From assembly GCA_034670405.1 (NCBI GenBank), contig JAXDDX010000052.1:620001-684000 (forward strand): 64,000 bases of DNA. Reading direction: 5' to 3'. The notes under the pieces are model-generated. The model was not told the origin of the DNA. It did no database searches and saw only the letters and a program-made list of their open reading frames with translations. Within the stretch, counting starts at the first letter, position 1. Each line of letters starts with the position of its first letter. This DNA comes from Hoplostethus atlanticus. Its lineage: Eukaryota > Chordata > Actinopteri > Trachichthyiformes > Trachichthyidae. Positions 8,891 through 54,167 of this stretch are shown piece after piece. The translations under genes and the position numbers were made by a program.

Positions 8891-8899
8891 TGAAAATCA

Positions 8900-9472
8900 A
8901 TGGTCAAAAGCCCTGACACAATGCCCACTCACCCATATTTTTCTATGGTTTGGGACATACTGTATCGAGTGAGTCATGACAGGAGGAGAATAAATTACCC
9001 AGCTGTCAGTCGAAAAGCTCACCATCACCATAACCCAATGGCTTGTCACCTAGGATATGACAAGTCACTACAGCAGATAATGGCTCGATTCTACTGGACG
9101 AGCATTTGGGCAGATGTGCGTAGGTGGTGCGCCGCCAGTCCCAAATGTCAAATAATCAATCATCTGTCCACCCAAAGAGTGCCTTCGCGCCCTCTTGCAC
9201 TGATGCAGGTGCCATTTGAAAAAGTTGGTATGGACCTCATTGGGCCATTAGACCATAGTGCACAGGGATATCGCCTAGTCGATCACGCAAACTGATATTC
9301 TGAGGCGGTGCCATTGCGCAATATCTCTGCAAAGAATGTTGCCCAGACACTGTTTCAAATCTTCGGCCAAGTTGAAGTTCCGAAAAAACTCCGGCTGGTG
9401 GAGTCATTTATTAAAACGCTGAAGAACATGGGTTGTAAGTTTGTGCATGAAGATAGACGAAATTGGACTTGA
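8900..9472 (+). pseudogene. gypsy integrase remnant (zinc-binding domain, deleted core)
   Basis: The plus frame carries the H2C2 zinc-binding region, with His residues followed by HLGYDK, then MARFYWTSIWADVRRWC, then the start of the catalytic core (KVGMDLIGPL). In the usual CPxC pair the first Cys is Ser (AASPKC), so zinc binding is probably lost. TGA at 9293-9295 interrupts the frame; it continues with SEAVPLRNISAKNVAQ and jumps from VEVPKKLR directly to a VESFIKTLKNMG-like segment. The intervening part, where the second Asp and the Glu of the DDE triad normally lie, is missing. A second stop is at 9470-9472. Not functional. Confidence 0.85.
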
Positions 9473-14568: not shown

Positions 14569-16436
14569 TGCCGCCACTGGCGTGGAGTGTAAATAAACGA
14601 ACGACACAAAGCCGCCACGAGTACACGCACATTTGTATGCGGTGACGTGTTCGACATTTATGGCAAGTTCGACTTTCTTGTAAGTATACCACCACCTTAA
14701 GGGCATTGTGCTGTAAGAGAGAAAGAAACAACGGTTTGATTGAAACACTACAAGCATTGGCAAGAACAGTCCACAGTTATCTGCACTGTAAGTGAAAGCC
14801 AACTTTGGTATACACTGCAGAGGATGGACAAGGGGTTGCTCAGCCTCCCTGTGACTCAAGGTGGTTTTCATCTCTCCCTAATTGCCCTTTGAGTCCAGAC
14901 CTGATCAATTGGCTGGCAGGCCTCCTGACCACGTGTCACTATTAGGCAACCTTTGAAGATGCCTCTCCAGAGGGTTCCCATGGCCAGCCAGGCGATGCCT
15001 GCAGCTTAATTCATCTAAAGGTTATTCAGATAGATGCATCAGGGATGGCTGGGCCCCCACAACTTCTACCCAAAACAATTTCTTCAACGGCCATCACAGC
15101 GCAAGGGTTATTAAAGAGGCAATGAGATAGAGCTGAGATATTCCCCCCCTCATTTTCCCATCCCAGAGGCTGATGATGTCTGGAGAGAAAAAGAGGCAGA
15201 GGAAGAGAGGGGGACAAAAAGAGAGAGAGGGGATCAGAAAAGAGGTAGAGGCAGCTGTTATTGTGTGTAGAGAGAGGGCTTATCAGAGGTCAGAGCCCAG
15301 ACAGTATCCTGGGACAAACAGCAAGCTGCCAAATAAATAACCCGTGCAAGGCGTCCAACCAGCCCTGCATGCACTAATACATGGCACCACTGATGATCAG
15401 AAAGAAGTAGAGCTTTATGTCTGTCCTCCATGACTTTGAGAGGCTCTCTGCAGAGGAGACGGCCAGGACGGGTCCTCCTGGCTACCTGAGGAGGAATGGA
15501 GGATGGCCAAGGTGAGCTGTGCTGCGTCTAAAAATAGAAACCCACTAATCGATTCCAGGGGTTGATGGGAGCCAGCGTACAGGGGAAGGGGGAAGGTCTT
15601 CAGTGAAGTCAGACAGGAGACGTCAGAGAGGGGAAAAACTGCCCGGAAACATTATCTATGAAAAATAATCCATGGCATTGTCATAAATAAATGTCCATTT
15701 TGCTACTCTCCATTGCTGATTGATATAACACAATAGTGATTAAACCTATAACCAGTTCATGAAAGCTTTGACCTTTGCTATTCTAAACACCTGGTGACTG
15801 GAAGTTTTTTTTCCCAGGAAAAGTCCTCTGGCGCAAAGGTGATGCGTTTTCCTTTTCTGGTTGGTTTGGAATAAACCATGGCTGAACAGACGAAGAAAAG
15901 AGTGGTACGTACAGAAACTCGAGTGATCTCTGGGAAGTGCAGTGCCGAAACACCACGGTAATGAGCGCTTAGCACCAAAGATCAAGACAAAATACAAAAA
16001 TAACACCACAGCAATGACTTAGCAACAGAGTTGGGATTGTGAGGATTCTACTACTTTATTCTAAAAGAAAAAAAATCAGCTACTCTGAGAACAAATGCCA
16101 GCCTTTGTCGGGGTTACAACACTGCATGTATAGTCGACAATAAATATATTCCATGACAACGAAAATGGCCACCTCAGGACCTATAGACCAATCATATGCC
16201 AGTAAAAAAAATGCTATTACATGGTGTAGGAGACACTATAGGGTTCCAACCACTTGAAGGACATATAATCCATTTTACAGTCAAGAACATATAGCATTAA
16301 CAGTATAAAATATTAATCTGAGAAATTACCTTCATGTATGCTGCATGTAGTTCATTCCAGGACCCCCAGTGTTGTCCCATACATAAGTACGCAGTATGAG
16401 CAAACTGAATAATACGGGTGCGAATCATTGGTGGAT
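14569..16436. other. intron, no recognised feature
   Basis: A GA-rich stretch at 15178-15275 is the only simple-sequence feature noted. Confidence 0.55.
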
Positions 16437-16439
16437 GTC

Positions 16440-16730
16440 GATGCACCGCCTGAAACTCAACCTGGACTTCAGGCGGAGCTGACTGAGCTGGTGTTCCTCC
16501 CGGGGAAGGGAGGAAGTCTGCACCGAGACCTGGCCATCACCATTGATAATGCTATGGTGACGTCAACTCGGACTGCGAGGAATCTGGGTGTGACCCTGGA
16601 CGACCAAATGTTGTTCTCGGCAAACATCGCATCACGCTCCTGCAGATTCCTTCTCTACAACATCAGGAGGATTCGCCCCTTCCTCACTGACAAGACGGCG
16701 CAAGTGCTCATCCAGGCTCAGACCTCTTGA
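16440..16730 (+). pseudogene. L2 LINE ORF2 fragment, reverse-transcriptase C-terminal part
   Basis: The frame reads ELVFLPGKGGSLHRDLAI, then TARNLGVTLDDQM, then SCRFLLYNIRRIRPFLTDK and AQVLIQAQ, all typical of the region after the RT active site in L2/CR1 LINEs. Just upstream, RLKLNLD is visible in a neighbouring frame, so a frameshift lies near 16460. The frame ends at TGA 16728-16730, exactly where the conserved SRLDYCN block should begin; that block is missing, indicating an internal deletion of some tens of codons. Confidence 0.85.
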
Positions 16731-17160
16731 GCTTGTTCAGAAAGCTGCAGCTTGTCTAGTGTTCAACCACCCCAAGTTCTCCCACACAACTACCCTTGTC
16801 CATGATCTACACTGGCTGCCTGTAGCAGCTCACATCCAGTTTAAAACTCTGGTGCTAGCCTACAGGGCAGTGAAAGGAACAGCTCCTTCTTACCGCAAGG
16901 CTATGGTCAAGCCTTACACTGCCGCCTGACCATTTCGCTCTGCTGCCTCAAGGCAACTGGTTGCCACATCACTCAGAGGCCCCTGCGGTCGCTCTACCCG
17001 GTCACGGCTCTTTTCTGTCCTGGCCCCACAGTGGTGGAATGAATTCCCCATTGACGACAGGACAGCTGAGTCGCTGTCCATCTTTCGGTGCAGGCTGAAA
17101 ACCCACCTCTTCAAGAAATACTACCCTGACCCTTCCTCTTTGTTTTATTTGTTTAAATAA
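16729..17160 (+). pseudogene. L2 LINE ORF2 C-terminus
   Basis: A second plus frame resumes with ELVQKAAACLVFNHPKFSH and continues DLHWLPVAAHIQFKTLVLAY, KGTAPSY, LFSVLAPQWWNEFP and LKTHLFKKYY to TAA at 17158-17160. This is the conserved C-terminal block of L2 ORF2, beginning with the LQxxxNAAARLV-like motif. One in-frame TGA (16927-16929) interrupts it after KPYTA. The protein end is followed by about 160 bases of 3' untranslated tail. Confidence 0.87.
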
Positions 17161-17724
17161 AAAGTTGGTAGATAACCATTGCACTTTTACCTTAGCACTG
17201 GTTATGCTCTTTTGGGAAGGAGATGCACTTATGATTTCTGTTGACTAATAGCTATCCTGCCTACCTATGGTGAATGCACTTATTGTAAGTCGCTTTGGAT
17301 AAAAGCGTCTGCTAAATGACTGTAATGTAATGTAAACCATGAGTATCCTGGGACAAATGTAATTACAGTAAACATATACTGCACATTAGAATGCCTCTTC
17401 CCAGGTTTTCAACAGCATGTGTGTTGAACTTAATACAACTTAACAACAGCCGAGTGGCATCTAGTCAGGTAAGTCGAATGACTAATTTTACAAACAAGAC
17501 TAGCAATGCGGTGGTGCCGGACCCTGGTACCTTAAAGATGACTAGTGGTGTCAATATTGCACAATGTAACTAAAAGAAAAATGCATATATATTTATATTT
17601 TTAACAGTTTCATAAAAATATAAAATAATTAACCTCATTAACTTTTCCTATGCCTGGTTAGTGTGGGGCCCTGTCCTCACAATGTCTAGCAATGTATTTG
17701 AATCCAGAATAGTAAAGGACAAGA

Positions 17725-29890: not shown

Positions 29891-32800
29891 AACATGTAAA
29901 AGGCGAAAAGTGTGTGCCACGGTGGCAAACACCTGAGAATTGTCCTACTACTGCGTCGCCTCCTCTTTCCCTTCACGTTCCACAGGGGCCGGTTGCGTTT
30001 GTCTGACAAAAGGTGGCGGAGATGCGGGGAGGGGGAATAGAGAGGGGAGTGAGAAAGATAGACAGATTGGAAGAAGGAGTTCAGAGAGCAAGGGAGGGCT
30101 CCTGAGAAAGGAAGACCGGGAATGAAGATGTAAAAGGAGGAGCGCTGCGTTGAAGCCAGGAGAGGAATGGGAGGACGGAGGGAACAGCGGGTCAAAGAAG
30201 AGAAAAGTGTGTGGGCTGGGCAGAAGGGGGGACTACGGCGGATAAAGAAATGGGAAAATGGAGGAATGGAAGGACGGATGGAAAATATGTGTGAGGGAGT
30301 AATAAAATGCACAGCCATGTGGACGAACAGCCAAACAGTCAAACAGCCTTTATTCTAACTGGTCTCTCTTTTTTTTCCTCAAAATGTTTAGTGTATACTG
30401 GGGACGGGGTAATTAAGTAAGATTTTTTCTGCCCCATAGCAGAAAATGACCTGTGGAGGGTTGATAGGGTTGCTGATTGATACCAATGACTCAACGATTA
30501 CTTGGCCAGGTGCTGAGATTTCAACTGCTCAAGGACCGAAGACATTTCATTCTCAAGCCCAAAAAACAAATGACAAAGCAGCATTATTATAGTATTTTGC
30601 ATGGTGATATAGTACCTCTTCACGAGACATTTTTATTGGATGTCTGCTCGAAATAACTAGCTTACTTGTGACTTTATAGTTTGTGTCAATTGCAGGCCAC
30701 AGTAACTCAAAGGGATGGAGGAGGGCTGTGCCAGAGACCTGTCGATGTTATATCCTACTGGTTGCCGACAGAGTTCGTAGATTATTTGATGCAGTTACTA
30801 GCCAAAAAGGGAAGGCTCTTCAACTGATTTTTGGAGTGCCTTGGATCTTTCTTTTCTTCTACATGACTACAAGAGGACCCTTTTATTATCTAGGGCACAG
30901 AGCCACACAATCATCGTCATTAGTGGCTAAGAAGCATTCCAGTCTCCAGAACTTCCAGGCCCAACAGAGAATGACGGTACAAAAGATGCATTACAGGAAG
31001 AGCAGAACCATTTCAATTAGGGAAACTCCCTGTAAAGGTGATATTAATGAGCTTTGTTGTTGATAGGAAAGCCAGGTAGTAAGCAGCAACCCTTCTTACC
31101 AAAAGGAAGATCACATCTCTGTGAACTGCGCCACCTGATCACACAGGACCCTAGACCCTAGAGTCTACACTTGCTGCTTAGTGGGAGTTCTTGCAAAGGG
31201 AAGTGCCCGTGGGCCTGGCTTTGACACACATCCTCCAGAGGGCAGGGTGGTGGGGGGGTGCATATTTAACTTCCTGACTGCACTCTCCTTTTTCCCCAAG
31301 CCTGCCGGCTGACAGGTCTACCCGCCAAGACGCCGAACAAACGCAAAGCAGGGCCCAGAGCACTCTCGAAGAACCCTCAAAGATAAATCTGCGGTCCCTT
31401 CTCCCCCATTGCCATTCATATCCCTGTGTAAAAATCAAAGGCTTCACTGTCGTGCGCGCTCTCCTCCAAGGTGTGCTTTTCATAGAGTCGAGGAGAACAG
31501 AGGGGTTGTGAGATACTTTGAGGCAGAATTGCGGCGGGTAAACGGTGTGAGCGGGAGACAAGTGACGGACAAAGCAAATGTAAGATAGAGCAAGAGAGAA
31601 ACCCATGAGAACTTGACGCATCTAGTTCACCGTAAACACATCCCAGGTCAGACACAGGATACTGTGAAGAATAAGTATACTGTAATAAAAGCATCCTCTG
31701 GAAAGGTTCTGGAGAAATTCCAGTAGGTCCTTTCTATTGTTGCAACGGCTCACATTTCAGGTGAAACACGGTAAGAAAAGCCACTGACACCGGAGCTCTT
31801 TACTAAACTGGCCTAATGAGCCATTAGTCCCCGCACAGGGTGGCAATTCATTGTGGAAGAAGGTTAAAGTCCTCAGTGAGCGTGTTCCGTTTTGTCTCCA
31901 GAGGTTGGTTGAATACAAGATCCTAATGCGGACAGTTAAAGAGTGGGGACAGGACAGATGACCTCTGCCTAATTAGAAAAGAGACAGCTTCCTCTGCAAT
32001 GAGGTTCCTGTCACAGTTCTCCAGCCAATCTCAAGGTGCAGAAACTCTGGTGGCATGAAGAAAAATTCTAATTTACGGTAAATGAAAGAGAAGATGCTAT
32101 TTTGATTGACTTGGGCAGCACACCTGTGGCAGCATCCGTGGCGTGCAATGTGGGTAAACTCTGAAGAAGGAAGTGGCTTAATAATGCATGCACCAATCAC
32201 AGGGGGTGGTGAAATCATTACTGGCCACAGACATGGTTGTGAGCAAGGTCAAAAGCAGCTGGTTATTACCACTGCTATATTATTTATCAGAGCCATTTCC
32301 ACATCAAGTGGCTTTCCCTGGGTTGCAGCTGCTCCCGCAGACCTCCCACGCTTCCTTAGAGGAAGTAATGGGCCAATGAGCTGAGACTCATGCAGGGAGC
32401 CTGCCCGTCATGCTGGGCAACAGCCAGAGACCTGGCCAATCACCAGAGGGAATGGCACCCACTGTTCAGCCAATCCTCGCAGTTAAAGTGAGATGTGTCA
32501 ATCAACCAGGTTAACCAGGGGAGATGAAAAGGCCTATTATGAGATAAGTGTGAAATAAATAAAAGCAAGCATGGATTCTGCAGCTCACCTACAGTAGGAA
32601 AATGAATGTGACATTTGTGTTTTCATCCAAAATCTGACTCAGGCAGGCTGCATTTGTCAGCATTTTCCCACAACTTAATAAGCATGAAAGCTTGCAGCCA
32701 AACAACATAACAAACTCAATTTGACGGAATCCTCTGCTGCCGTGCCAACAAGATCTTTGTTTTTCCAACTCATCTCCGATGCAATATTCATCTTACAGGG

Positions 32801-33889
32801 CATATCACAAACACTTGTATCTGAAATCTCTGGGCTCTTGGCTGAGCAGCTCGGCTAATGATAATTACTGTGTTATATATTTATCAAGCTGTGTGCTGCT
32901 GTCGCTGTGAGGCATTCCTGGTACTAGTTAGGGGAGGGGAGAATGCGTCTCAGCTGAATCAAGTACGCATTTCCAAGTCTAATGTTTGCCCTTTTCTAAG
33001 AGAACAGGGGAGATTAAACTGATGGGACTGTGGGCTTGTGTAACGGCTTCAGACAGCAGTGTATGTCTATGTGCGAATGTGGACGTATGCACGTGTGTGC
33101 GCGCATTTGTATGCATCTGTGTGCTAGAATGTGCATGCGCATCAAACAACTTGGCTCATCTACATGCAACACAGGCCTTGGATTTCAAATAGACGTCCAT
33201 GTCAGTTCCAGGGACAATTTAAAAAAAAAAAAAAAATTCTGCATCTTTGTATACAAACGGCAGGCAGAAGTTAAAAACTTTTAAAGGTTTGCAAATGTAA
33301 TTACGTTTCATATATGATCTGAGGCAAGATCATGAAAAAATGTACATGAATATTCAGAGATTGTTAGCGCTTGTTTGCATGCTACAAACAAAAAGGAAAT
33401 TCCTTTTGCTTTTATGATTCATTAACTCTTGAAATGTTACAGCCTAAAGCCTCAAATCCACATTTATACAACACACAGCGCAAGGGTTTTGGATGAGTCA
33501 GTCTGAAGCAGGTGTCAGTGTGGAGGTTGTTGGTGTTTGTACAGCAAATGCCAACTCCTGGGAAACAGACCGTCACACTCCTCTGTCCACCAGGCTGTTG
33601 TGACATAATCCTGCATGGTATGTGTAATGGGCCAGTTTGGGGAATAGGTAGAAATAAACAATAATGTATGGTACTGCATATATACTGTGTAAAATATATG
33701 ATAAAAAGCCATCGGTTTGTTATTCTGGACGTGTATGGCTACTCGATGGCAGAGCTTATCCTGTGGAAAGCCTGCCGTGGGACTCGCTGTGTCCTTTCGG
33801 GCTTTCGGGTGATGTAACGTACCCTCTGGCAGCCATGTTGGAGGTCCTCAGCTCAATTTTGCGTTTAGATTATCTCCATTTGTTAGCTG
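29891..33889. other. intron, no recognised feature
   Basis: Purine-rich at 30015-30290. Mixed TG/CG alternating words at 33080-33140 are too short to call a microsatellite. Otherwise unassigned. Confidence 0.5.
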
Positions 33890-33985
33890 CCTAACCATCA
33901 TTGTCTTGTTGTAAACAGATCTGATTTGCACACTAGGTAATTAATTAGCGTTAGTAGTGGCTAGTAGTCACATGTTAACATGAAC
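33890..33985 (+). repeat. dispersed repeat family D, copy 1
   Basis: cctaaccatc and ttagcgttagtagtggctag recur in order at 46776-46860. The gctaacgttagc theme is common at ends of fish DNA transposons. Confidence 0.35.
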
Positions 33986-34014
33986 TAAATGAAATTGTTT
34001 TTTTGTTTTTTTTA

Positions 34015-34187
34015 TATAGAGCTCTTACAGTAATACTGTAAATATTGTGTTGTTTTTTTTATTGTAAATACTGTGTACTGTTGCCCTTTGCACATTCCTG
34101 TTGAGCATTGCCACTTTTTCATTTCACTGCACACCCCGTGTGTGTATGTGACAAATAAACTTCTTGAATCTTGAATCTTGAATTAGC
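34015..34187 (+). mobile_element. retroposon 3' end with TTGAATC tail
   Basis: The segment runs through 'attgtaaatactgtgtactg', a 'ttgcacattcctgttgagc' stretch and 'tgtgacaaataaacttc', ending in three ttgaatc tandem units (about 34165-34186). This layout is typical of fish LINE-derived 3' ends. No coding part is preserved. Confidence 0.5.
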
Positions 34188-34775
34188 CTGCCGGTGGTGA
34201 GGTCGGGGGGGGTTGAGTAGGCTGGGAGCTGGGAGATGGTGTTGATTTCATATAGGGCTGAGTCACTGGGTGGTTGGCCTGGGCTGAAGGGCAATGCCTG
34301 CCAACTAGATGGGGCACACACACACACAGCTAATTTCAGCAGCACAGACGCACACAGGCCCACACACACACACAAATACTCCCTCTCTGTCAGCAGCAGC
34401 TCAGTCATTTAAAGTGACGGAACGCATTACTGTCATTGTCACTATGATTAGAGTGCCAATTAAGCACAGAGGACGGACACGCATACAATTAACCATGATA
34501 TTTCAATGACACCGGCTGCCAAATGCTAATACAGAAAAATGGCAGGAAAAGGCACCAAAAGAGCCCATCAAAAGCTGCAGGGCAGCGAATGCGCTGAAAC
34601 GGTGTCGGCAGAGGTTAAGGCACATTAAATTGCATTTGCATTCAATGGAAATGTAATTTATGGAATTATTGTCATTCAATTTTAAACAGAAGGGGTCAAA
34701 ATCATCATCGGAGGAACTGTGGCTAAGCTTTGGCCATTTAAAGGATCATTGTGTATGTTGTTGCTCATCACCACC

Positions 34776-34949
34776 AGAACTGAAATACTGTGTGAGAACT
34801 GAAATAGTGTCAGAACTGAAATACTGTGTAAGAACTGAAATAGTGTCAGAACTGAAATACTGTGTAAGAACTGAAATAGTGTCAGAACTGAAATACTGTG
34901 TAAGAACTGAAATACTGTGTTGGAATTGAAATAGTGTGAGAACTGAAAT
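34776..34949 (+). repeat. 36-bp higher-order minisatellite
   Basis: Two related units, agaactgaaatactgtgta (19 bp) and agaactgaaatagtgtc (17 bp), alternate to give a 36-bp period repeated about four times, with a diverged end. Because 36 is a multiple of three, the array is open on both strands; the resulting peptide repeat (ELKYCVRTEIVS) is incidental. Confidence 0.88.
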
Positions 34950-35395
34950 GTCACCTGGTAAGTAGAAATGGCGAACACATCACACATAATGATTTGTTGT
35001 TGATTCACTAACACTAAAATTGTACATTGAAAATGTCTACATCAACTGAAATCCGTCAAAATAAAGTAAACTAGAGGATTTAACATTTTAAAATGTATGA
35101 AACTTAAAGTTGAATGTAGTTTTAATGATGCCCATCAGAATAACAACCCCTATGTGAACATCAGTGTGCGTCAGGCAGAAAGACGCTTTTCTGTGATTGC
35201 TAAATGTTGGGAGTGTGCTTCTGAAGTGTGAAGTCAGTGTGTGAGAGAGTGTGCGCGTGTGTGTGTGTATGTGTGTGTGCATTTGTACCAGGGGTCCACT
35301 GCCTACAGTGTACTGCAATCACCCCCCTGCTGAAAAGAACATAGGTGGATCAGCTTTGTGCCTGCAATCAGTGTTCACGTGTGCATGACTGCCCG

Positions 35396-35460
35396 CGCGC
35401 ACACACACAAACACACACACACACACGCACGCATGCATACACACACACACACACACACAC
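35396..35460 (+). repeat. compound CA microsatellite
   Basis: CA blocks broken by acaa, gcacgcatgcat and similar variants. Confidence 0.9.
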
Positions 35461-37468
35461 CTAGATTGTGGGCTTTATTTTGTAATCAGAAAGCAAGAGC
35501 TCATCCTTCAGATCAGGCAGGGGAAAACTCACTGGGGGTGTCAACACACACGTTCTTTAATCAGTGTTTTTACTGTTTTGTCGAGGCATTTTGCATTTTC
35601 AAAAGACAATAAATATTGAGTTTCCAAAACATATGCACAGGCAAATGGAAAAGAGCATTTAACGTTACCCAATGTTGTAAAACACAAATTAAAACTTTGT
35701 CCACGCAGAATTCTCTGATGCTACTTGTTGATTTTTGTGCGTATGAAGGAATGCACACGCGCGATGGCCTGCACCAATTTTGAAAAGCTATAAATATACC
35801 ACCGAACTGAAAGTCGACACAACGTCCGTAGTCGTCCGTAGCTGCTACCTGTATCATGTCTTTCTGATATCAGTTCAAACCAATTTCAAAGCTGGTTTAC
35901 AATACCATGCCATATCACATTTTTCACTTTTAACTTATTTTTCACAGTGTATCTCTCATCTTTACGGCCCTTTTTCCCTTTAATGAAAGGTCATATTACT
36001 GACATGAGCTCATACACCTTCAAACAGTGCTTCTCTGCACTCAACGCGCCATGGTTGTCATTCAAACCAATCACTACACGAGGCGATTTCACTGATTGAG
36101 CAAACCTCAAACAGAGAGAAATCATCTAGTGCGTGGTTGGAATGAAAACCTGCGGACTGTTGTGTTACGGTGGAGCACGAATGAAACCCGCCGCCTTAAA
36201 AAAAACAGAAAGTGGCAGTTAGCGGAACAGCATTCAGCTGACACAACATTATGTAACAAATGACAGGTTACGCATATCAGTTCCACCACACACAAAAAAA
36301 AAATAAATGATTTGTTCTGCCTATGTACATGCTACTCTTTTGGAAATCCACTGCCGGTTATCAAAGTTACAGTTTGGAATTCTTTCCCTGCAGAAAACCT
36401 GCAAAATTCCCAATGACGGATTACTGTTTCATACTGATGGTGATGTCACATGGTATGTGCTGAACATTGATCTAGGTCAGAAGCAGCAATGATACAGCGA
36501 TGATACAGATGAGCCGAATTTTAGTAGCACTGGTATCTGCGGCATACGTCTTCCCTGTGGTAACAAACAACCTCTCCGACACCAGAGCTTAGAGCCAGAA
36601 GGGATGAGTATTGGAACATTTTCATACTGGATCTCTAATCAGACAGCTAAAACACAGCATTTGTTTGTTTAATTCAATTTTGGTTGGGATTTCAACTTTT
36701 ATATAATATAAGAACTCTAAAAGAGCATTAAATAAATTTGGACTTATGGCCGAGTATTGATCCCACAGATACATTATGGCCATTTGGTGCGATGGGGCTG
36801 TAAAAAAATCGTATGTATTGCATCGTTAATATAATGCACTCATCTTGAAGCAAAATGTGACTAGTGCTTCAAGCTGCTGAACTGGACTACTGCAGGTTTT
36901 CAGGCTGCCTCAGAGACTCAGCTGGCCTTATTACTCTGTTTAACAGCCATTTCATCAGACACTTCAGTGTGCAGCATATGAAATGAAGCAAAGGACAGAA
37001 GGGGAGATGCACCAAGTAGAGGATGACGCATGCCTGCGCACGCACGCACACAAATGTTCAATATGAATATGAAGTATGCCACTGTAACACAAACACACAC
37101 TTGAAGACTTGAAGTTTTTGTGTTTTTTCCTGCTAACGTGTTTTTTTTCACTTTTTAATTTAATTAACTTGTGCAATGGATACTTAATAGGGTTATTTCA
37201 TGATTTTTCAAATAAAATGTACAGTTGCATCATCACTGTTGAGTAGGACTGGATATCAGTTAAATAATTAAACCTTTTTTTTCCAAAACGCACAAAGACA
37301 AAGTCCTTTGCTTCAAGAGAAGAGGAGGGCTGAACATCTGAGAAGATCAGGTATGGTTCTGGCTTTTTATATCGTCCTATGTGAAAACTCCAGAATTGCT
37401 CTGTGCAGAAGGAAGGAGTGTAGATAGATTGTTGAGAGAGATGGAGGCTACCCATGTAAACAGATTTA

Positions 37469-37580
37469 AGGCTGCACGATTAAGGCAAAATTGACAAATG
37501 ATTATGAATCAAGATTATTTGTCTCGGTTTCACGGGCAAATATCGCAAATTTTTCACCTTAGCATATATTTTCTCTTTTT
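37469..37580 (+). mobile_element. fragment of a 'gctgcacgatta' fish DNA repeat
   Basis: ggctgcacgattaaggcaaa followed by tgattatgaatcaagattat resembles the conserved start of a frequent non-autonomous fish repeat with a GGCTGCACGATTA terminus. The other end was not identified. Confidence 0.4.
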
Positions 37581-37857
37581 TTCCAGTGCGGCATTTCTCA
37601 AAGTAGCAACAACTAACTTACTCTTATTGTGTTCCTTATATCCAAAATTCAAATAAACAATTACTGCTTTATTACTTTGGAGGCACAGCTACGTTGAGTC
37701 TATGTAAGGTTTCTCTAATTCTGTCCCACTTTTGTTTTGGTCACATGGGTGCAAGTGCTTGATTTACCACACTGTGAGGGGAATTGTGGCTGTAAAAGCA
37801 TTCACCCTCTTAACCTTTCCACATGTTTGATGTGCTAGATTCATGTGATAGCTTTCA

Positions 37858-37965
37858 GACCAAAAATGCAAAATAAACGCACTGAAATATGTTTGTGCCA
37901 CAAGAAAATGTCGAAAAAGTTGAAGGGAGGGTGAGTACTTTTCATTGCCGCTGCATTAGAGAATT
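37858..37965 (+). mobile_element. possible Tc1/mariner-like 3' end
   Basis: acaagaaaatgtcgaaaaag, then ttgaagggagggtgagtact and tttcattgccgctgc resemble the 3' terminal region of fish Tc1-like elements ('gtgaatacttttgc ... gcactg'). No transposase sequence was found upstream. Confidence 0.45.
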
Positions 37966-38310
37966 ACTTTTTTTGCACTTCCGTGTGATTTCTTCAAGGC
38001 TCGCAGCGTGTCACCAAAACAAAACCTCAGAATAGAGATTTCAGCGTTATCTGGCACAATTTGTCAAAGGAGGTGTGGGACGTCAAGCTTAGGTGGCAGC
38101 CTTAAAGTAGTTCTATACCAGTAGGAAAGAAAAAAATCCTGCTGAAGAATCAATGAGCTGACAGTCCAGCCTTTTTGCCTCATAGTCATCTTTTGATGGG
38201 AAACACAAATTAGATGAGTCTGCAGCAAATAAGACCAACTTCTGCTTACTCTCCCCGTACTTACACATACTGTAAATCACACAAATTGCAATGTTCCAGA
38301 CGATGTGCAT

Positions 38311-38325
38311 GCACACGCACGCACG

Positions 38326-38384
<59 letters not shown>

Positions 38385-38423
38385 CCACACAACACAACAC
38401 AACACAACACACACACACACACA
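38311..38423 (+). repeat. compound GCAC / CA / ACACA array
   Basis: gcacgcacgcacgc units, about 30 CA units to 38383, then four to five acaac-type pentanucleotide units and a final CA block. Confidence 0.94.
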
Positions 38424-38559
38424 ATATCCTAGAGTGTGGCAGCAAAACAATGATGAGTCACCAGGCTTAGTCTGCATGGCACCAAATCTCAAGGAGATTA
38501 AGAAGACACCTTTCAGTCTGATACTGGCCAGAGATGAATTTACGTTCAACACACAAGCA

Positions 38560-38567
38560 CAAGCACA

Positions 38568-38651
<84 letters not shown>
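38560..38651 (+). repeat. long CA microsatellite
   Basis: caagcacaagcacacgcg leader, then about 40 pure CA units. Only about 140 bp from the previous array. Confidence 0.96.
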
Positions 38652-38653
<2 letters not shown>

Positions 38654-40365
38654 TACATAGAGTATGGAATAGAGTGGTACAGGGATGACGTATTTTTGTA
38701 GGCCAACCCGGAAGTTAGCATCGCCCTGGTTCCCTCGACAAAAAGCCAATGGGATTTTTCCATTGGATTTTGGATTATTGCAGAAAATAAGCTCTGTGGC
38801 AAACAAAAGTTTATGATACTTACACGTTTTGTTCAGCAAGATAATCTTCACAAATGAACATCACTTTTATGATTTTTGAAGCGTAAATGCAATCGCCAGA
38901 AGTAAAAAGCTAACGTTAGGCTATGAACGAACTACACCAAGGTCGCATGACTTCAACGTCACCACCACTAAAAATATTATAAATTGATAAATCTGGAAAA
39001 AGTTGGAAAGTTTGAGTTAGAATAGTTTGGAAGAGCGCGAGTATAAACACAACTAGAGGCTGTAAAGGCGGACTACTAGAGTTGATGAGTTTCCGTGTTC
39101 GGCGTGATGGTGTTTAATGTCCCTGACAACCTCTGTAGTCTGATTTAGCCACTTGTTAGTAACCGGCTATTTTAAGACACGTAAAAGCTTCAAAATTAAC
39201 TTGTGTTAACCACAGACCTTATTTCAGGCATCTAACTAAAAAAACAATTAAAAAAACCATAGACTTCGAGACGAGGGAACCCATAGTGAAAAAATGCTAA
39301 CTCTCTTACGGGGTTTAGGACTCATTCCTGCACCACTCTATAGACACCTCATGAAGTTCCATCAGTACCTTTAGCACCTACCTAATGTCACACTAAGCCT
39401 GCATGCACACGCAGCCACAGAACACCTCACCATTTTAAGCCACCCTTTTTTTTCATGCTGATACAATACAGGTGCTGGTTGCCAGTCATAATGCTGAGGG
39501 TTAGCAGGTTAGCAGCCAAGTGTATTGTATGTAAGTTCAAGACTTTCCTGTGTCTTAGCGAGAGGAGAAACCAGTGAAAGGAATCAGTTAAGGACGAAAC
39601 CGGCAAAAACAACACGCCCTTTTCAGCATGGACAGTAAAATCAACTATGAAACACTATTGCCTGGCTTTCAAAAGAGGTACAGGAGGGAAGGGATTTTCC
39701 CGGTGAAAATGTTTTTCCCCGGTGCTTAACTGTGGCTTGTTTGTTGGTTTTTATTCGTAATGGCAGTGGAAGGGCTCTTTCTGACCTTGGAGACCTGGGT
39801 TATAATCTGACGTCCTGTGGAGAGTAATGGTCAGTTTCCATACGAGACAAGTGATACTGTCAGGGAAATCACTTCCCCTTTATCCCCTTTATTCTCCCTT
39901 TCTCTCTATCATTCTTCTTTGCTCTTTGACTTTTGTCATTTATTCTCTCCAGTGGGAGTGTTTTGACCAGCTTAAAGCAGTAGCATAGCCAAAACCTATC
40001 AAAATCTTTGATAGGTGGGCCTACATAAAATTGGCTGGACCAAAGGACAAGTGTGTGATTCACATATGAGTGAATTTGAGTGGGTATTGGGCAATTTTGC
40101 CTTTGAATACTACTGAAGCAAAATTGTTCCCCAATCGTCCCCCTCTGAAATGGGTGGGCAAATTGGACAGGGGGCCCACCCATACCTATGCGCCTGCCTT
40201 GAAGTTAACAAAAAGAACTGCAGTCTAAATCGGTGGACTGAACGCCGAGTGCAACAGAGATCCATGGGAAACGGAGTTCTTGGAGCAAAAGCATAATGTA
40301 AAAAAAAGAAACTCCAATCAGTGTACATACAGAAATACTACTCTTATTTATTGGCGAAAGTCCAT
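38652..40365. other. intron, no recognised feature
   Basis: No array, repeat family or open frame of interest was recognised. Confidence 0.5.
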
Positions 40366-40566
40366 TGAGCTCCATGCTATTTTCCAGCAGCATCTTGCTT
40401 CACATTCATGCAGTTCCACATTCCAACTGGGAGCTGCCCAGTATAACCAGTCTTCTGCTGGTGGTCACTGCTCAAGGGCAACTCGACTCAAGGGTGTTAC
40501 TCATTCAGCGAACTTCTGGGTCACAAGCCCACTTACCCTTACCCTCTAGGCTAGCAACCACCGCCA
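40366..40566 (-). mobile_element. tRNA-headed SINE copy, degraded
   Basis: It aligns with the better copy at 60905-61200: both share cttctgggtcacaagcccac-like sequence, gtgttactcattca and the gcagcatcttgcttcacat-like block. The B-box region is deleted in this copy. The element ends where the 45-bp-module repeat begins (about 40570). Confidence 0.5.
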
Positions 40567-40573
40567 TCAACCA

Positions 40574-40761
40574 AGTGTCCTTGGTAGATCACTGGCTCTG
40601 GTGCTCCATGCTAACACTTTAACATACAGTATGTTGAGTGATACCAGGCTCCATGCCATCACTTTAGCATACATTATGTTGAGTGATGGTAGGCTCCATG
40701 CTAACACTTTAAGATGACTAGACTATTACTCAACATAGTGTATGCTTAAGTGTTAGCATGG
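40574..40761. repeat. second copy of the 45-bp-module foldback repeat
   Basis: The left end (ttggtagatcactggctctg) matches the left end of the 54-kb copy. Two complete tandem 45-bp modules follow (40606-40650, 40651-40695), then a truncated third (40696-40711) and one inverted module (40721-40761, catagtgtatgcttaagtg). The right terminal repeat seen at 54 kb is absent. Confidence 0.65.
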
Positions 40762-40879
40762 CCCAGTCTCAATGCCCACGCTCGCCGGCTCCCAGACATC
40801 GAGGCGCACTCCCACTAAGGCCATGAGGGCCGAGGCCTGTTCCATTGTGTGAGTGCTCTTGTGCAGACTTTGTGCACCC

Positions 40880-40953
40880 CAGTGTTTCCCATACAAGGGC
40901 TCATCTGTGGCGCACCGCCACAATATCAGCACGGTCGCCACAAAATAAAAAGT
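40880..40953 (+). mobile_element. possible hAT-like terminal sequence
   Basis: cagtgtttcccatacaaggg followed by ctcatctgtggcgcaccgcc resembles a terminal repeat often seen at ends of non-autonomous fish DNA transposons. It sits inside the 45-bp-module locus (between 40761 and 41061), so it may be a nested insertion. No second end was found. Confidence 0.3.
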
Positions 40954-41060
40954 TGGTCACTCAACCCTTGATGACCCATGCACGTGCCCCCCGGAAAAAT
41001 ACATCTCTGAAGTCAGCAAGGGCTCAGTCCTCGAGTCCAAAGGGTGCAGTTTGGGATTGG

Positions 41061-41105
41061 GCCCATCACTCAACGTAGTGTGTGCATGCAAAGTGTTAGC
41101 ATCAG
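41061..41105. repeat. isolated inverted 45-bp module
   Basis: The sequence atcactcaacgtagtgtgtg, then catgcaaagtgttagcatc, is one more module of the family at 40606-40761, in reverse orientation and 300 bp away. It may mark the displaced right side of that copy. Confidence 0.5.
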
Positions 41106-41749
41106 TCTAACTGACTAACAAAAGCATACGATGCAGCCTTCCGTTCCTCGTCGCTCTCCGTCATATTCCCATTCCGGTAAAAGAGGTTTGGAGTGGGTTG
41201 CTGGTGGTCTGTCCCGCATCTCTCCCTTAAAAACTCCTGCTCTAAACTCAAGTCCTGCTGCTGCTTCCCTCAGCACTGTGTCTTTGTAAAGTCCTCTGCT
41301 TCAGGGCAGAGGGCTGCGTTTGGTGAAGCCAGTGATAAGGCCCGGAGATAAGGTGGGGGGAGATAACCGGCCTGCCGCCTACTTCGCTCTGCAGCATCAG
41401 CTATCTGAACTCTTATCGGACCACACAGGCCTCCCTCTCTCAATCTCTCTGTCTTTCTATTCTATCGTACACCCTTTCCTCTTTCTTTTGCTCTTTCTCT
41501 CACTTTGTCGGTCTACCCTCTCTTCTCATTCTTTCTCGCCCTCCCTCTCCCTCTCTCTCTCTCTTCCATCTACAATCTCCAGAATGCCAGTGCAGATCCA
41601 TATCGACTTATCTGAGGGGGCAAAATGGCTGAAGGGGAAATGAGGCTAATTAAATTGATAGGGAAAATAAATGTTGGTTTATGTGGTCTATTTAGCTGGC
41701 AGGCTGAGTTGTCATAAAGGTGTGTGTGCACTTGTGTGTGTATCTGTGG

Positions 41750-41751
<2 letters not shown>

Positions 41752-41782
<31 letters not shown>
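41752..41782 (+). repeat. TG microsatellite
   Basis: About 15 TG units, preceded by shorter TG blocks from 41721. Confidence 0.92.
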
Positions 41783-41785
<3 letters not shown>

Positions 41786-42109
41786 CGTGGAGAATGACCA
41801 TGATAAGGGAACAGATTTAGTATGGATCGCTGGGTAGAGTGAAAGCTATCTGTAACGGACAACAATGAAATTGACCTTGAGGGAAGTAGGAATCCTTGAG
41901 GAAATCCACTTATTGTTGTGGTTGTTGTTGTTGTTGTTGCTGACGTGTGTGTGTGTGTGGCGAACTGGAAGATATGGATGCCGCAGGGAACAGGCTTTTA
42001 TGTTCTGCATATAATGCACCAGCATGGGCTTAAGTGTGGTGGCTATCGATTTGCTGCCTAAAGAAGCATGGGATACTCCTGAGTCTAAACAGACAAAAAC
42101 ACACTCACA

Positions 42110-42112
<3 letters not shown>

Positions 42113-42140
<28 letters not shown>
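42113..42140 (+). repeat. CA microsatellite next to the msi2 exon
   Basis: About 14 CA units (TG on the transcribed strand), starting about 26 bases after the msi2 donor site. Intronic UG repeats near donor sites can bind splicing regulators such as CELF and TDP-43 type proteins; whether this one does is inference. Confidence 0.92.
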
Positions 42141-42165
42141 GCAAAGCAGCAGTGGAGTGACTTAC

Positions 42166-42214
42166 CTCTGTGTCGGTTGGTGGTTTTGTCAAACATTAGC
42201 ATGGCATCCTCTAC
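42166..42214 (-). CDS. msi2: msi2 internal coding exon (Musashi RRM2, beta2 strand and loop)
   Basis: On the minus strand the 49 bases read in one open phase as VEDAMLMFDKTTNRHR plus the first base of a Gly codon. This is the Musashi sequence just before the RNP1 motif of the second RNA-recognition motif, so the exon supplies beta2, the beta2-beta3 loop and the Arg that opens RNP1. It is flanked by an acceptor (tgtctttcag) and a consensus donor (AGAG|gtaagt); it begins in phase 0 and ends in phase 1. Musashi proteins are cytoplasmic RNA-binding regulators of translation that bind UAG-containing 3' UTR sites in stem and progenitor cells. As I recall the family, MSI2 has Glu at the second position and MSI1 has Asp, so I call msi2; the paralogue (a or b) cannot be decided. 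The exon is too short to stand out as an ORF and lies 26 bp from a CA array. Confidence 0.93.
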
Positions 42215-42786
42215 CTGAAAGACAACGGGAAGGCATTTGTTAGATGTAGGTGGAGATGAAAGAGAGAAAGGTCGGGGCTGTAGACAGAAAGAGAGGGTGA
42301 ATACGAGTTGAAATTACACAAAAAACACGTTCACATAATGGCTCACTAACACACACACACACACACATCAGCTGGGAAAGAGAGTGTGGAGTTTAAGTGT
42401 GTGTCCCTGGCCGAGGGAGATGAGTAATGATGAGTGGGCCTCATGGTGCACCGGGGCTGAATGCAACTGACGGACAAGGATAGGGATTGCAGAAATGGGA
42501 GGAGAGGGGTGGGATATGATTTCAGGAGCACGCGCCACAATACAACACAGTATGGTATGCAATAATGTACAACGCAGATTTTGAAGCCGGATTGCTTACA
42601 ATATCGTCACACACACGCAAAAAAAAAGAAAGAAAAACACGCGAAACACAATCTTCTATTCACAGGTACACACTGCATCTAACAGTAAACAACGAATGAT
42701 GCAGTCGCCGGTAAACAAATACGTTGTCTTTTACTGTAGCGCCCCGCTTTGGCCAATCAAGTATATCAGAAACGCCATGCACAGCC

Positions 42787-42918
42787 GTGACATACATAAT
42801 TCCCCCCAAGTTTAGTCAAAATTCGATCAGATATTGCACGTCTGAGATATCGCATGCAACGGAGGGACAAACAAACAAACAAATGGCTGGACGGAAAACC
42901 GATCCATAGTCCCCTCCC
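42787..42918 (-). repeat. dispersed repeat family C, minus copy
   Basis: On the minus strand it reads ggggactatggatcggtttt, a tttgtttgtttgtccc stretch, gcgatatctcagacgtgcaa and actaaacttggggggaatta, the same order as 10293-10400. It lies only about 570 bp upstream of the msi2 exon. Confidence 0.5.
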
Positions 42919-42948
42919 TGACAAAAAAACACAGCACAGCACTTCCCT

Positions 42949-42980
42949 CCTCCTCCTCCTCCTCCTCCTCCTCTCCTCTC
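42949..42980 (+). repeat. CTC/CCT trinucleotide tract
   Basis: About eight tcc units followed by a looser CT stretch, adjoining the exon-like segment at 42985. Confidence 0.88.
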
Positions 42981-42984
42981 TTAC

Positions 42985-43025
42985 CTTCCCCAGATAAAGC
43001 AAATCATCAATCAATCTTTGTCTCG
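42985..43025 (-). other. exon-like segment with splice signals, candidate poison exon (speculative)
   Basis: A 41-base segment on the minus strand lies between an acceptor-like site (cctttttcatacag) and a consensus donor (GGGGAAG|gtaagag), 770 bp upstream of the msi2 RRM2 exon. The preceding msi2 exon must end in phase 0, so inclusion would read Arg-Asp-Lys-Asp and then TGA at 43013-43011, which could trigger nonsense-mediated decay. In a different phase the segment is open and joins in frame to the VED exon, but no in-frame ATG was found upstream. Short splice-like motifs occur often by chance, so this is a pointer only. Confidence 0.2.
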
Positions 43026-43029
43026 CTGT

Positions 43030-43760
43030 ATGAAAAAGGCCCCGTTGCCACGAGCCATAATCACATTCATCAGGGCCAATCAGCCACGAGGCTCCGTTTC
43101 CACGCGGCGAGGGAGAGAAAACACTACATGGCTAACTCACACGCACTGTAAACCAAGATAGATCCGCGTTAGCTCGAGGACAAAAGGCAGCGTTTCCGGT
43201 ACATAGGCACGCATAGGCTGATATCGACTCGACGAAGGAAGGTAATCGTTAACTTTTTTTTTCCCTCCGATATTGAACTTGGGATGTTACCGTGCGTGAA
43301 GTGACATTACCCCGGCTGTTAGCGGAGTCTTGGTATTCAACGAGTCACGTAGTCAAACATCGAGTGGAAAATTAAATTTTCCTGTGCTTTGAGCGTTTGC
43401 ATTGAGCATTGAAAAGTATTTTACAAGGAAAAGGCCACGAGAGGAGGAAAGCCAAAGGGAGTCTGAAGCTCAAGTAGTTGCAAAACATCAAATAAACCTG
43501 ACAAGAAAAGCCCTGAACCCCACCGAGTGACAAAAACAAGTGACAAAACAAAATGCAATAAATGTTGAATCACTCTATTTGCCCAAATTCAGGTGTCAGG
43601 TATGGTCACTGGTAGGATACAGGAAATGACGAATCAAAACTCAGGAGTGAAATCCAAAAGTGTCTCCTAAACAGCAGCGAGCGCTCCGTGCAGAGAAAGC
43701 GGCACACACCGACGATAGCAGAACCTCTTGACCACCGCCAGACGCTAGGAAAGAGGCATT
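43030..43760. promoter_or_regulatory. CpG-richer intronic stretch with CCAAT and X-box-like words
   Basis: CpG words (ccacgcggcgaggg, gatccgcgttagctcgagg, gagcgctccg) are denser here than in flanking intron. A CCAAT word (gggccaatcagcc) lies at about 43073 and a ctaggcaac word, possibly part of an RFX-type X-box, just downstream at about 43874. It could be an internal promoter or enhancer upstream of the RRM2 exon. No initiator or TATA signal decides it. Confidence 0.2.
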
Positions 43761-44224
43761 TAGTTTACTGAGGCTGCCTTACAGGACTTATGGGTAATGA
43801 AGTCCTCAAATTTTAAAGGAAGGGAGAAAGGCCAATTCAGCAGTGGGCAGTGCTCTCCCTGGTTACTGTAGCTAGGCAACGGGGTTAAGATGGGATGGGC
43901 GGGTTTTAAGTCCAAAACACAAACTGTTTGACTGTGTGTGTGTGTAACCTAATGCCATGCAAAACCCAAATCTTGCAAAAACCCACTACAACACACAACC
44001 AGAATTATATGGAACAACATACTGCTGTTTTGTTTTTTTTTCTTTTCTGGCACTCGACTCTCATTAGCTATTGTCGGTATTGTTGTATTGTTATAGGACG
44101 ATATCGAGACTTGAGTGGAGCTGTTAAAGTCAAACGTGTTTAAAATAATGGTGATGGATCCTGACTGAATTGGAAGGCCAGAGACTAGAACACTGCCCAC
44201 AAACGAGTGCCGACCTGATCTAAT

Positions 44225-44420
44225 CTGGAAAATCGGTCGCGATTGATTGATTGATTTTTATTCAGTACTTAAACTATACATACAATGTAAATAAAAAGTA
44301 CAAGGATGGCACAGAAAGTCATTTGACTTATTTCCACTGTGGTCCTAAAAAAAAATATATATGAAAATAAATAGCACCAAAACAAAAGAAAAATATATAA
44401 CAACAAATATTAGACTAGTA
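44225..44420 (-). mobile_element. possible retroposon tail, minus orientation
   Basis: A GATT tandem (gattgattgattgattttta) leads into AT-rich sequence, as expected for the reverse complement of a LINE-like 3' end with a simple-repeat tail. No protein similarity is visible, so it could be plain AT-rich sequence. Confidence 0.25.
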
Positions 44421-46070
44421 TATGATGCCAAAGTTCGGCTACAGTCAGCCTCAAAGACGCGTTATTCCAAGGCGCAAAGTTATGACTTTTAAAGCGAAAA
44501 ATGTGTTCAGACTAGATGGACACCATTATTCACATATTATATCACACACCAGCACACACACACTCAGGTCTCATTTCTCAAGTGAGTAAGAGTGCTGATC
44601 ATGCATTAGCTCATAATGAGGCAGATGGATGACCTGCAGTAATCAAGGATCCTAAATTAGCGGCCCTATAGCAAGATGGTTGACAGAACTCTCGAATGGT
44701 ACAGCAATGTTTTATCTGCAGGCTGGAGCAGTGCACCATGGGAAGGGTGATGGCGGCTTACAGTGATTGGTATCCATATGCAGCACAGATTTTGCAGTTC
44801 AGTAATGCTGTGAAACAATATGCTCGGCAAGGCCTTGGCAGCGGCTCATTTAAAATGGGCTTGGGTTTGCTCTGCCAATCTCCCTGTCTGCTGGCCCAGA
44901 CTAACAGGTCTGACAACACATTACTACACAACAACTGAACAGAACTGGAAAACGGGGAGGAATTCATATTTTATCTCCATGTGCTGATGTGTCTAAGGGC
45001 CTGTAGTTTTTTTCATTAGGTGCTTGTTGAAAAGTCTGAAAAACCTGTAGTAGTAACCTTTATATATCAGCCGTATATTCCTTCTGCTGCCACTAGTTTT
45101 CACTGCAGTTGCACTGGAACATTGAATTTTTCCATTTCCCCTTTTTCTACAATTCAAACTGCTTGTGGAAGCGTTTGGCTAGCTAGTCGAAGATTAATTT
45201 GATTAAGTTTGATTTAGCTTACGTATGTTCCTTGTAAGTGGGTTATTCCTTAATCCTAATGCTGAGGATGTAACGTTAGCGTAGTAGTTTCTTATTACCA
45301 TATTATTATTTGCCAAAATGCTGACAGCTAGCAAGCATGTAACTAGAGCTACGTTAGTTTCAATTGTTTATATAAAATTCAAACTATATTAGTGATAGGG
45401 CAATGTGAAAGTGAATAGGTACAATTTAGGAGTATGGCTGGGAGACTCACTTTTTCAGTGTTAATTATTTATTTCTCAATAAAATAAAATAAATAAAAAA
45501 GAAAGAACATGAAGTGTTTTCATGAAGTTCAGAAAAGAGATGTGTAGTTAATTAACATAAGCAATAAGCAGTTACTACTATCCAACTGTACTTAACCATC
45601 ATCGCTCTGAGGTGCTATGATTTAGCTTCCCTCAGAAAACTCCCTTGAACGCCTCTGAATATCGGCTCCTACTGTTTTCTTCGGCAAATCAAACTCAATG
45701 TGGACTACTTATTTAGGAGAAGACAAGAGTGGCAGCATATTGAAGGGCTGGTGGCTGTATTGAGAAGGGACGACGCCGGCCGAGATTTAAGACGGGCCCT
45801 AACAGAGTCTGACAGCAGGTTAAATCAGCCACTTGAACATTATTTACATTAGTTTCACTGGTGGAGAGAATTATGAGATCCCTGGAGCTCTCTTGGCCAC
45901 GGTGTGTACATGTGTGTGCTTGTATTCCTTAGTGGAAACGGTCCTGTGGACAGGGTAGTATCCACGGGATTATAAAAGAAAAGACAACCAGTGAAAAATG
46001 CATAATGCTTTCTTAAGTTACCATTCAAAAACCTGGGAAGCCAGCCAGGCTTTAACGGCAAAAAAATGCT
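44421..46070. other. intron, no recognised feature
   Basis: AT-rich around 45470-45510. taacgttagc words near 45270 hint at transposon debris. Confidence 0.45.
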
Positions 46071-51548: not shown

Positions 51549-53029
51549 TAGCGAGCAATGTAATTTTCCGTGTAATGAAAAAAGCAATAACATTTTCTCT
51601 CATCCTTTTACAGCTGAAGGCTCACCTCCTGTGTGCTCTCGCTTTCTTTCTCTCTGTTACGCCAGTGCCAAACTGAAGAACATCCTGAGTCACTGAGCTA
51701 CTGCATGCAAGTCACCCATGCAGCCGTTGGACCGTTTCACGGCGCTTTGGAGAAAATTGTTAAATTCGCCTTGGAAGGAGCAATGATTGATTGCAGGATT
51801 TGATGAATATCTCAAAAAACACCTGGAATAAAATATGGCCTGGCATGAAAATGCGCAAGATTTAATGAACAAAATCTCCATCTTAATCAAACATGACAGC
51901 TTTGACATGCATCCCAGTTATTGGAATTTCAGATGCATGGTATAGACAGGACAAAGTAAGCGAGGCTTACTTTCAGTCAATTATAGATTCTGTGGAACCC
52001 ACCCCAGTTCTTAATTCAGATTGGACTTTTTAATTCAGCTGGCTGGCAGATTGAAGACCAATATTCTGCGGTATAGAAAACCAAAGCTGCCCAATTTTGC
52101 ACCTCTGATACAATGCTAAAAATTGTCATCCGTCATCCGTTTTTGACAGGCAGAATGCGGACGGCTGCGTTGTTTGGATGTGGCCGGCTATCCCATCGGC
52201 TTATTAAGGCTCAGATTAACATGACAGCGCTGTTTTGTCTTGGGAGTCTTGGTTGTGGCTCGGGGAACGTTTATTTTTTATTTTTACCAAGCATCAGTAA
52301 CAGCTCATATTCCCAGTGACTGACGCCAGAGCTTTTCTCCGTGTCCACAAAGGCAGAACAAAAGAGCTTTATTATTTGAAGCGTGAATTCAAAAGGTAGG
52401 AAGTGTGATGAGGGAGAGATGAGGCCACCAGAGATGCACCGTTGCAGCTATCAAACAGAAGAGAGTGAATTAAAACAGAAATGGAGGGTGGGGAAATGGG
52501 GCGGGGGGGGGGTGAAGAATGACTTGTTGACAGGAGAAAGATGAGTCGCATTGACTTTCCATCTCTCCCTCTCTCTTTTTTCTTTTTAAACCGAGAGTTG
52601 TTTTATCACATTCGATAATCAAAAGGCTCCGTTTCATGGGTGGTCTGTCTCGGGAGAGAGAGAGAAAGCGAGGTCTGTTCATAAGTGTTACTTCACTCAT
52701 CATCTTTGCCAATCTCTCCGGGAAAAAAACAATATTGGGGAGGAGGGAGCCAGGGAGAGCTACCCTGACCGGCCCCTGTTAGCTAGCAGGTATTAAATGG
52801 ATTCACCTTTGCAAAAAAAGCAGCTGCATTTCCTGCTGTGTAACCGCATGCTAGCTGGCACTAGCAGGGGTTATTAGCCAATGCCAGTAAATATGAAATG
52901 AACAGATAAGAGCACGGCAGATAGGGAGAAACTGGCTGAGGCTTTGAGAAAGACCCTATCTAGATTTCCCATGCTTCTGCTTATCCCTTATCCCCATCTT
53001 CCTCTGAAGAGAAAGTGACTATTTTTTTA

Positions 53030-53570: not shown

Positions 53571-54167
53571 AGACTGAGGGTGAGTTCACACCACAGGTTT
53601 ATTTAAACTCTAGAGCGTTTACTCCTTTAGTTTGTTTGAACCAAATACAAAGTTAACTTTTCCACTGTGGTTCGGACCAAAGAAAACAAACTGCAGCTGT
53701 GACCACACCCTGCCGTCTTCATGGGAGGACTAGTTGCACCTGAGCTTCTCCCTGTAGCCGCCAAACCTCCAGAGATCCGCTGAGGAAAACAAGCTACACT
53801 CTAGGGAGGCTTTGGCTTGTCACAGTTGTCAGTCACAATTATGATAGAGATGAAGGTGCTGAGGAGAAGCATCCTCAGCTACATGACGCCACTAAGACAA
53901 GATGAAGCTTTAATCATGTTGTAGAGAAATTGGGTCTTTGCGGCAGCAAAAAATATATATACTAAACTAATAAATAAATAACAAACAAATATAATATGAA
54001 CAAGAATACAGCAAATGAAAAAATGTATGTATGTTGAGGAACCAACTGCATGGTGGAAAAGACTAAAAGCACACAGCCATGGGTCGATCCTGCATTTTCT
54101 TAAAAGAACAAAGTTATTTTTTTTGTCATGTTGGTCAACTTCCCCATTAAGTGATGAGAACATAGAC

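Follow-up and report, generated by a model that had tools for sequence, protein, structure and literature searches.

The question raised by this locus is what a stretch of 49 bases represents which lies on the minus strand of an analysed stretch of 64,000 bases (the window, C52:620001-684000, taken from a searched genome of 632.8 Mb in 1161 contigs), and what it tells about the DNA around it. In an earlier note made from the letters of the window it had been read as an isolated exon of msi2 encoding 16 residues plus a split glycine of the second RNA-recognition motif (RRM2) of Musashi. We are practically certain that these bases are a constitutive-type internal coding exon, the seventh of thirteen, and that the gene, lying on the minus strand of contig C52, is a complete vertebrate musashi-2, which codes for an RNA-binding protein. 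The sequence, the reading frame, the exon order, the splice dinucleotides and the agreement of three paralogues in the length and phase of the exon were observed directly, and from these we infer that the exon is probably transcribed and always included and that the protein would act like musashi-2 elsewhere. The coordinates of the gene features and of the matches to a second musashi-2 copy are collected in Table 1.

Read on the minus strand, the 49 bases are preceded by TTGTCTTTCAG and followed by GTAAGT, and their translation is VEDAMLMFDKTTNRHR with one base left over, the first base of a glycine codon. The two consensus splice sites claimed for the exon, a CAG acceptor and a GTAAGT donor, were found in place, and the pattern CAG-N49-GTAAGT has a single occurrence in the window, both strands pooled, which is the one at this exon. 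GAGGTAAGT likewise occurs once in the window. The match of the peptide to Musashi was confirmed when all six frames of the window were scanned with every 12-residue word of human MSI2: the exon site gave 12 identities out of 12, and five shuffled MSI2 proteins reached at best 8 out of 12. The best matches among solved structures of a 23-residue query containing the peptide were the Musashi-1 chains 2mss and 5x3y, which we take to be RRM2 of Musashi-1. In the protein the exon would supply the middle of RRM2 and end within the codon preceding the RNP1 core (GFGFVTF), and the spliceosome would be expected to recognise it by ordinary exon definition, with a strong GTAAGT donor and a pyrimidine-rich CAG acceptor. 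Due to its shortness the exon by itself scores just E 0.069 in a genome-wide protein search with human MSI2, and C52 is absent among the matches listed for an RRM family search of the genome; the case therefore rests on the neighbouring exons.

A genome search with human MSI2 yielded nine matches on C52, all of them on the minus strand, in order, and flanking the window on both sides. Exons 1, 2 and 5 were placed by script and exon 13 was found separately. The end of exon 1 was set at a GTAAG donor and that of exon 13 was taken at the stop codon, the latter exon being joined by inspection and not by script. When joined, exons 1–12 form an unbroken open frame of 335 residues, which shares 294 of 315 aligned residues with human MSI2, the RRM stretches among them, and exon 13 is entered in phase 0 and adds 13 residues, GPLIATAFTNGYH, followed by the stop. 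Human MSI2 and MSI1 sequences for these comparisons were typed by hand. The coding span of the gene is about 266.5 kb. The presence of further msi2 exons in the flanking contig had been named in the earlier note as a check, and they were found there, on the minus strand with order and frame kept; the exon also orients the window as had been proposed, with the exons on both sides agreeing on a gene on the minus strand. Its isolation was equally borne out, 63,951 of the 64,000 window bases lying in the two flanking introns. As the intron before exon 6 has a length of 62,127 bases, exon 7 is not alone in being isolated.

Table 1. Features of the musashi-2 gene on C52, of the window, and matches of the window to the second musashi-2-like gene on C18 (positions without a contig name are window positions)
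Feature	Position	Strand	Basis or remark
Exon 1	C52:792564-792625	-	located by script
Exon 2, 41 nt	C52:791644-791684	-	located by script
Exon 3	C52:791293-791374	-	exon map
Exon 4	C52:790509-790593	-	exon map
Exon 5, 42 nt	C52:784617-784658	-	located by script
Exon 6	C52:722397-722489	-	exon map
Coding exon 7, 49 nt, part of RRM2, phase 0 in, phase 1 out	C52:662166-662214 (42166-42214)	-	exon map; sequence, translation, genome search, paralogues
Exon 8	C52:613968-614050	-	exon map
Exon 9	C52:586309-586423	-	exon map
Exon 10	C52:575815-575889	-	exon map
Exon 11	C52:557696-557818	-	exon map
Exon 12	C52:528498-528652	-	exon map
Exon 13, stop included	C52:526094-526135	-	end at stop codon
Intron between exons 6 and 7, 21,786 of its 60,182 bases	42215-64000	-	exon map
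Branch-point-like CTAAC, its A 26 bases before exon 7	42240	-	prediction only
Acceptor with pyrimidine-rich tract, in transcript direction 42239 to 42215	42215-42239	-	splice grammar, by inspection
Donor GTAAGT	42160-42165	-	sequence, pattern search
Intron between exons 7 and 8, 42,165 of its 48,115 bases	1-42165	-	exon map
Block A, 92 of 144 aligned columns identical	52123-52266		48.3 bits; 9.9 kb from exon in C52, 9.2 kb in C18, same strand
Block B, 63.7 percent across 171 columns and 96 percent in the first 26 bases	41279-41446		36.8 bits; 0.9 kb from exon in C52, 0.5 kb in C18, same strand
Block C, weak, 83 percent over 30 bases	53782-53811		31.1 bits; 11.6 kb from exon in C52, 11.2 kb in C18, same strand
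Match to C18	from 30672		48.3 bits; opposite strand
Match to C18	from 27878		34.0 bits; far from corresponding place

The same exon, 49 bases long and with the same phases, is present in all four musashi genes found: the one on C52, a second musashi-2-like gene on C18, and two musashi-1-like genes on C142 and C2. The number of its 49 bases identical to those of the C52 exon is 39 in C18 and 44 in each of C142 and C2. The introns on its two sides measure 55,925 and 43,395 bases in C18, 5,023 and 619 bases in C142, and 3,266 and 550 bases in C2. Giant introns on both sides are therefore common to C52 and C18, with short ones in C142 and C2, and no significance is claimed for the likeness in intron length alone. 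Two musashi-2 and two musashi-1 loci would fit a teleost genome. In excerpts of one publication zebrafish msi2a and msi2b are named together (PMC9304896).

The earlier note had taken the peptide as identifying msi2. This label turned out to be right, but 16 residues alone are insufficient for it: a single place sets them apart from MSI1, and there the msi2-like exon of C18 has the MSI1-type residue (VDD, as in both msi1-like copies). That the 49 bases belong to musashi-1 is nevertheless extremely improbable. Across exons 6–9 the C52 gene agrees with human MSI2 at 112 of 113 positions and with human MSI1 at 100 of 113, and it is this better match of the neighbouring exons to MSI2 which settles the label. 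The MSI1-like genes of this genome are those on C142 and C2, with 108 and 106 of 114 positions, respectively, identical to human MSI1 over the same exons, and the C18 gene is identical to human MSI2 at 109 of 113. Next to no probability is given either to the idea that the exon is part of a dead or processed musashi copy with no working gene. Exon 6 is found again on the small contig C605, and this might point to copies scattered over the genome. However, C605:15001-25000 follows C52 for about 9.8 kb, in one piece at 98.3 and in another at 99.7 percent and with the intron as well, and it probably represents the second allele of the exon 6 region or a redundant contig. Furthermore, exon 7 is flanked by introns, splice sites accompany all 13 coding exons, and the gene showed neither an internal stop nor a break in the frame.

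With the exon assigned to a complete musashi-2 gene, it might still be an alternatively skipped microexon, a switch turning the protein off, as its length is small and not divisible by three and it stands isolated. If the 49 bases are left out and exon 6 runs directly into exon 8, the frame is shifted; in C52, C18 and C2 a stop then falls at the fifth codon past the junction, an early stop in three of the four paralogues (in C142 it occurs later), and the intact protein therefore needs exon 7. In addition a UG repeat starts 25 bases downstream of the exon, a situation shared by 2.8 percent of window positions (run of at least 16 nt within 80 bases), as computed after the run had been seen. This run is, however, absent from the approximately 65 bases after the same exon in C18, and TG runs are found also after exon 6 of the C52 gene and, together with CA runs, on both sides of exon 7 of C142. 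As similar runs occur near other musashi exons and none follows the C18 exon, the UG repeat was treated as chance. The donor of exon 7 is GTAAGT, and constitutive use is what one expects of an exon that lies midway in RRM2 and shifts the frame when lost. Microexons are neural, up to about 30 nt long, and keep the frame; judged as a very short exon with a length that is a multiple of three, exon 7 with its 49 nt does not belong to this class, and exons 2 and 5 of the same gene are shorter. Skipping as a switch was therefore considered very unlikely, and a constitutive-type exon 7 remains the preferred reading. Over the whole window, the transcript strand has 16 TG runs of at least 16 nt and 5 such CA runs. 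Human exons 3–11 are common to both human MSI2 isoforms compared in a published study (PMC5599597), which fits a constitutive exon and is no test of the C52 gene; truncated splice forms of zebrafish msi2b are described in the same study (PMC5599597). According to another paper, Msi2 RNA occurs in unspliced form in blood stem cells of the mouse (PMC3162030).

Removal of the giant introns in steps was looked at by scanning the window and nine C52 pieces for a recursive-splice motif, defined as a pyrimidine tract followed by YAG/GTRAG. There were no sites on the transcript strand and two on the opposite strand, in a scan which covers 70,297 of the 108,297 bases of the flanking introns and, in addition, sequence from other introns of the C52 gene. 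Exon 7 begins with GT, and the junction of exons 6 and 7 could thus recreate a donor. The GT is, however, part of the valine codon, and the three paralogues read GTCGA there.

Outside the exon, the window was compared with 16 kb of C18 next to exon 7 with simple repeats masked. The exon itself scored 66.8 bits, and five non-exon matches of at least 31 bits were obtained. Three of these five (52123, 41279 and 53782) are on the same strand and less than 800 bases from the corresponding places, and mirror controls (reversed, complemented; n=3) top out at 28.3 bits; with a stricter cut-off the control lists contained no match. When placement was simulated at random, three of five had a probability of about 3e-5, the cut-offs having been picked after the matches were seen. 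These three position-matched blocks speak against the assumption that nothing is conserved beyond the exon between C52 and C18. Sequence from other loci also matches the window strongly, with 52.5 bits for unrelated loci and 111 and 136 bits for other C52 introns, and these matches were taken for dispersed repeats. A score is therefore no proof in itself, and what counts as evidence is that the positions agree. Of the two remaining matches, the one at window 30672-30807 pairs with C18:2010861-2010981 on the opposite strand at 65 percent, off the corresponding place, and is perhaps an old repeat.

At more than 26 bits block A matches only itself and C18 in the 358,618 bases examined, and is therefore no common repeat within those bases. 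Its copy in C18 has a stop in each of the six frames, so that the block looks noncoding, and an Rfam search with it gave one match far under the gathering score (21.9 versus 47). Block B contains four GATA-type motifs in C52 and three in C18. It is one of two places in the window with four such motifs in 170 bases; in C18 three per 170 bases are not rare (54 of 1,583 windows). The end of block B is rich in TC and draws many weak hits. The three noncoding blocks are perhaps regulatory. That the giant introns contain regulatory DNA which both musashi-2 copies have retained from the time of their duplication is a tentative proposal which we regard as possible and rather doubtful. It is suggested by three blocks at near-equal distances from the exon, among which block B groups GATA-type motifs less than 1 kb away from it, and by the giant introns in both musashi-2 copies, those of the musashi-1 copies being short at this place. 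Intronic elements common to duplicated developmental genes are a known kind of thing.

The remainder of the window contains various repeats. The claim that the exon is the only coding signal in 64 kb was too strong, as a transposon integrase relic is located at 8894-9292 on the plus strand (zinc-binding domain PF17921, E 1.1e-10), found in one of ten open frames scanned out of 63 listed. Rfam gave a single match for the whole window, a UnaL2-type LINE 3' element (RF00436) at 17271-17325 on the plus strand. Overlapping open frames just upstream of it, at 16413-16929, are LINE-like by eye and have no Pfam match above the cut-off. An interspersed repeat at 38668-39344, about 675 bases long, has inverted ends of 20 bases which are 90 percent complementary; the match to it is 83–95 percent in 39 scored candidates from other parts of the genome, and it looks like a non-autonomous DNA transposon. 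In a genome-wide search with window 30001-46000, 88 of 93 matches were to one interspersed repeat. A tandem array with a 36-base unit, 4.9 copies and 93 percent matches lies at 34775-34949.

Exon 7 as such is ordinary, being a conserved piece of a well-studied gene. A literature search which included recursive splicing gave nothing on the 49-base exon among the papers listed. The value of this short conserved exon is that it fixes identity and strand of an otherwise gene-poor window and thereby locates a gene with a coding span of about 266.5 kb. The sole lead beyond it, and a modest one, are the noncoding blocks common to both musashi-2 copies. Should these stand up to comparison with further vertebrates, a stem-cell gene would have in them candidate regulators within its own introns.

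The gene can be compared with two known systems. Vertebrate musashi-2, represented by human MSI2 and zebrafish msi2a and msi2b, is like the C52 gene in protein sequence, in its two RRMs and in a tail that ends with ATAFTNGYH; human MSI2 differs from the C52 protein by small residue changes, and exon 11 of C52 as cut is 20 residues longer than in the human isoform compared. Vertebrate musashi-1, represented here by the genes on C142 and C2, shares with C52 the length and phase of the exon and 44 of its 49 bases, whereas the flanking introns of these genes are far shorter and the sequence of their exon 9 is different.
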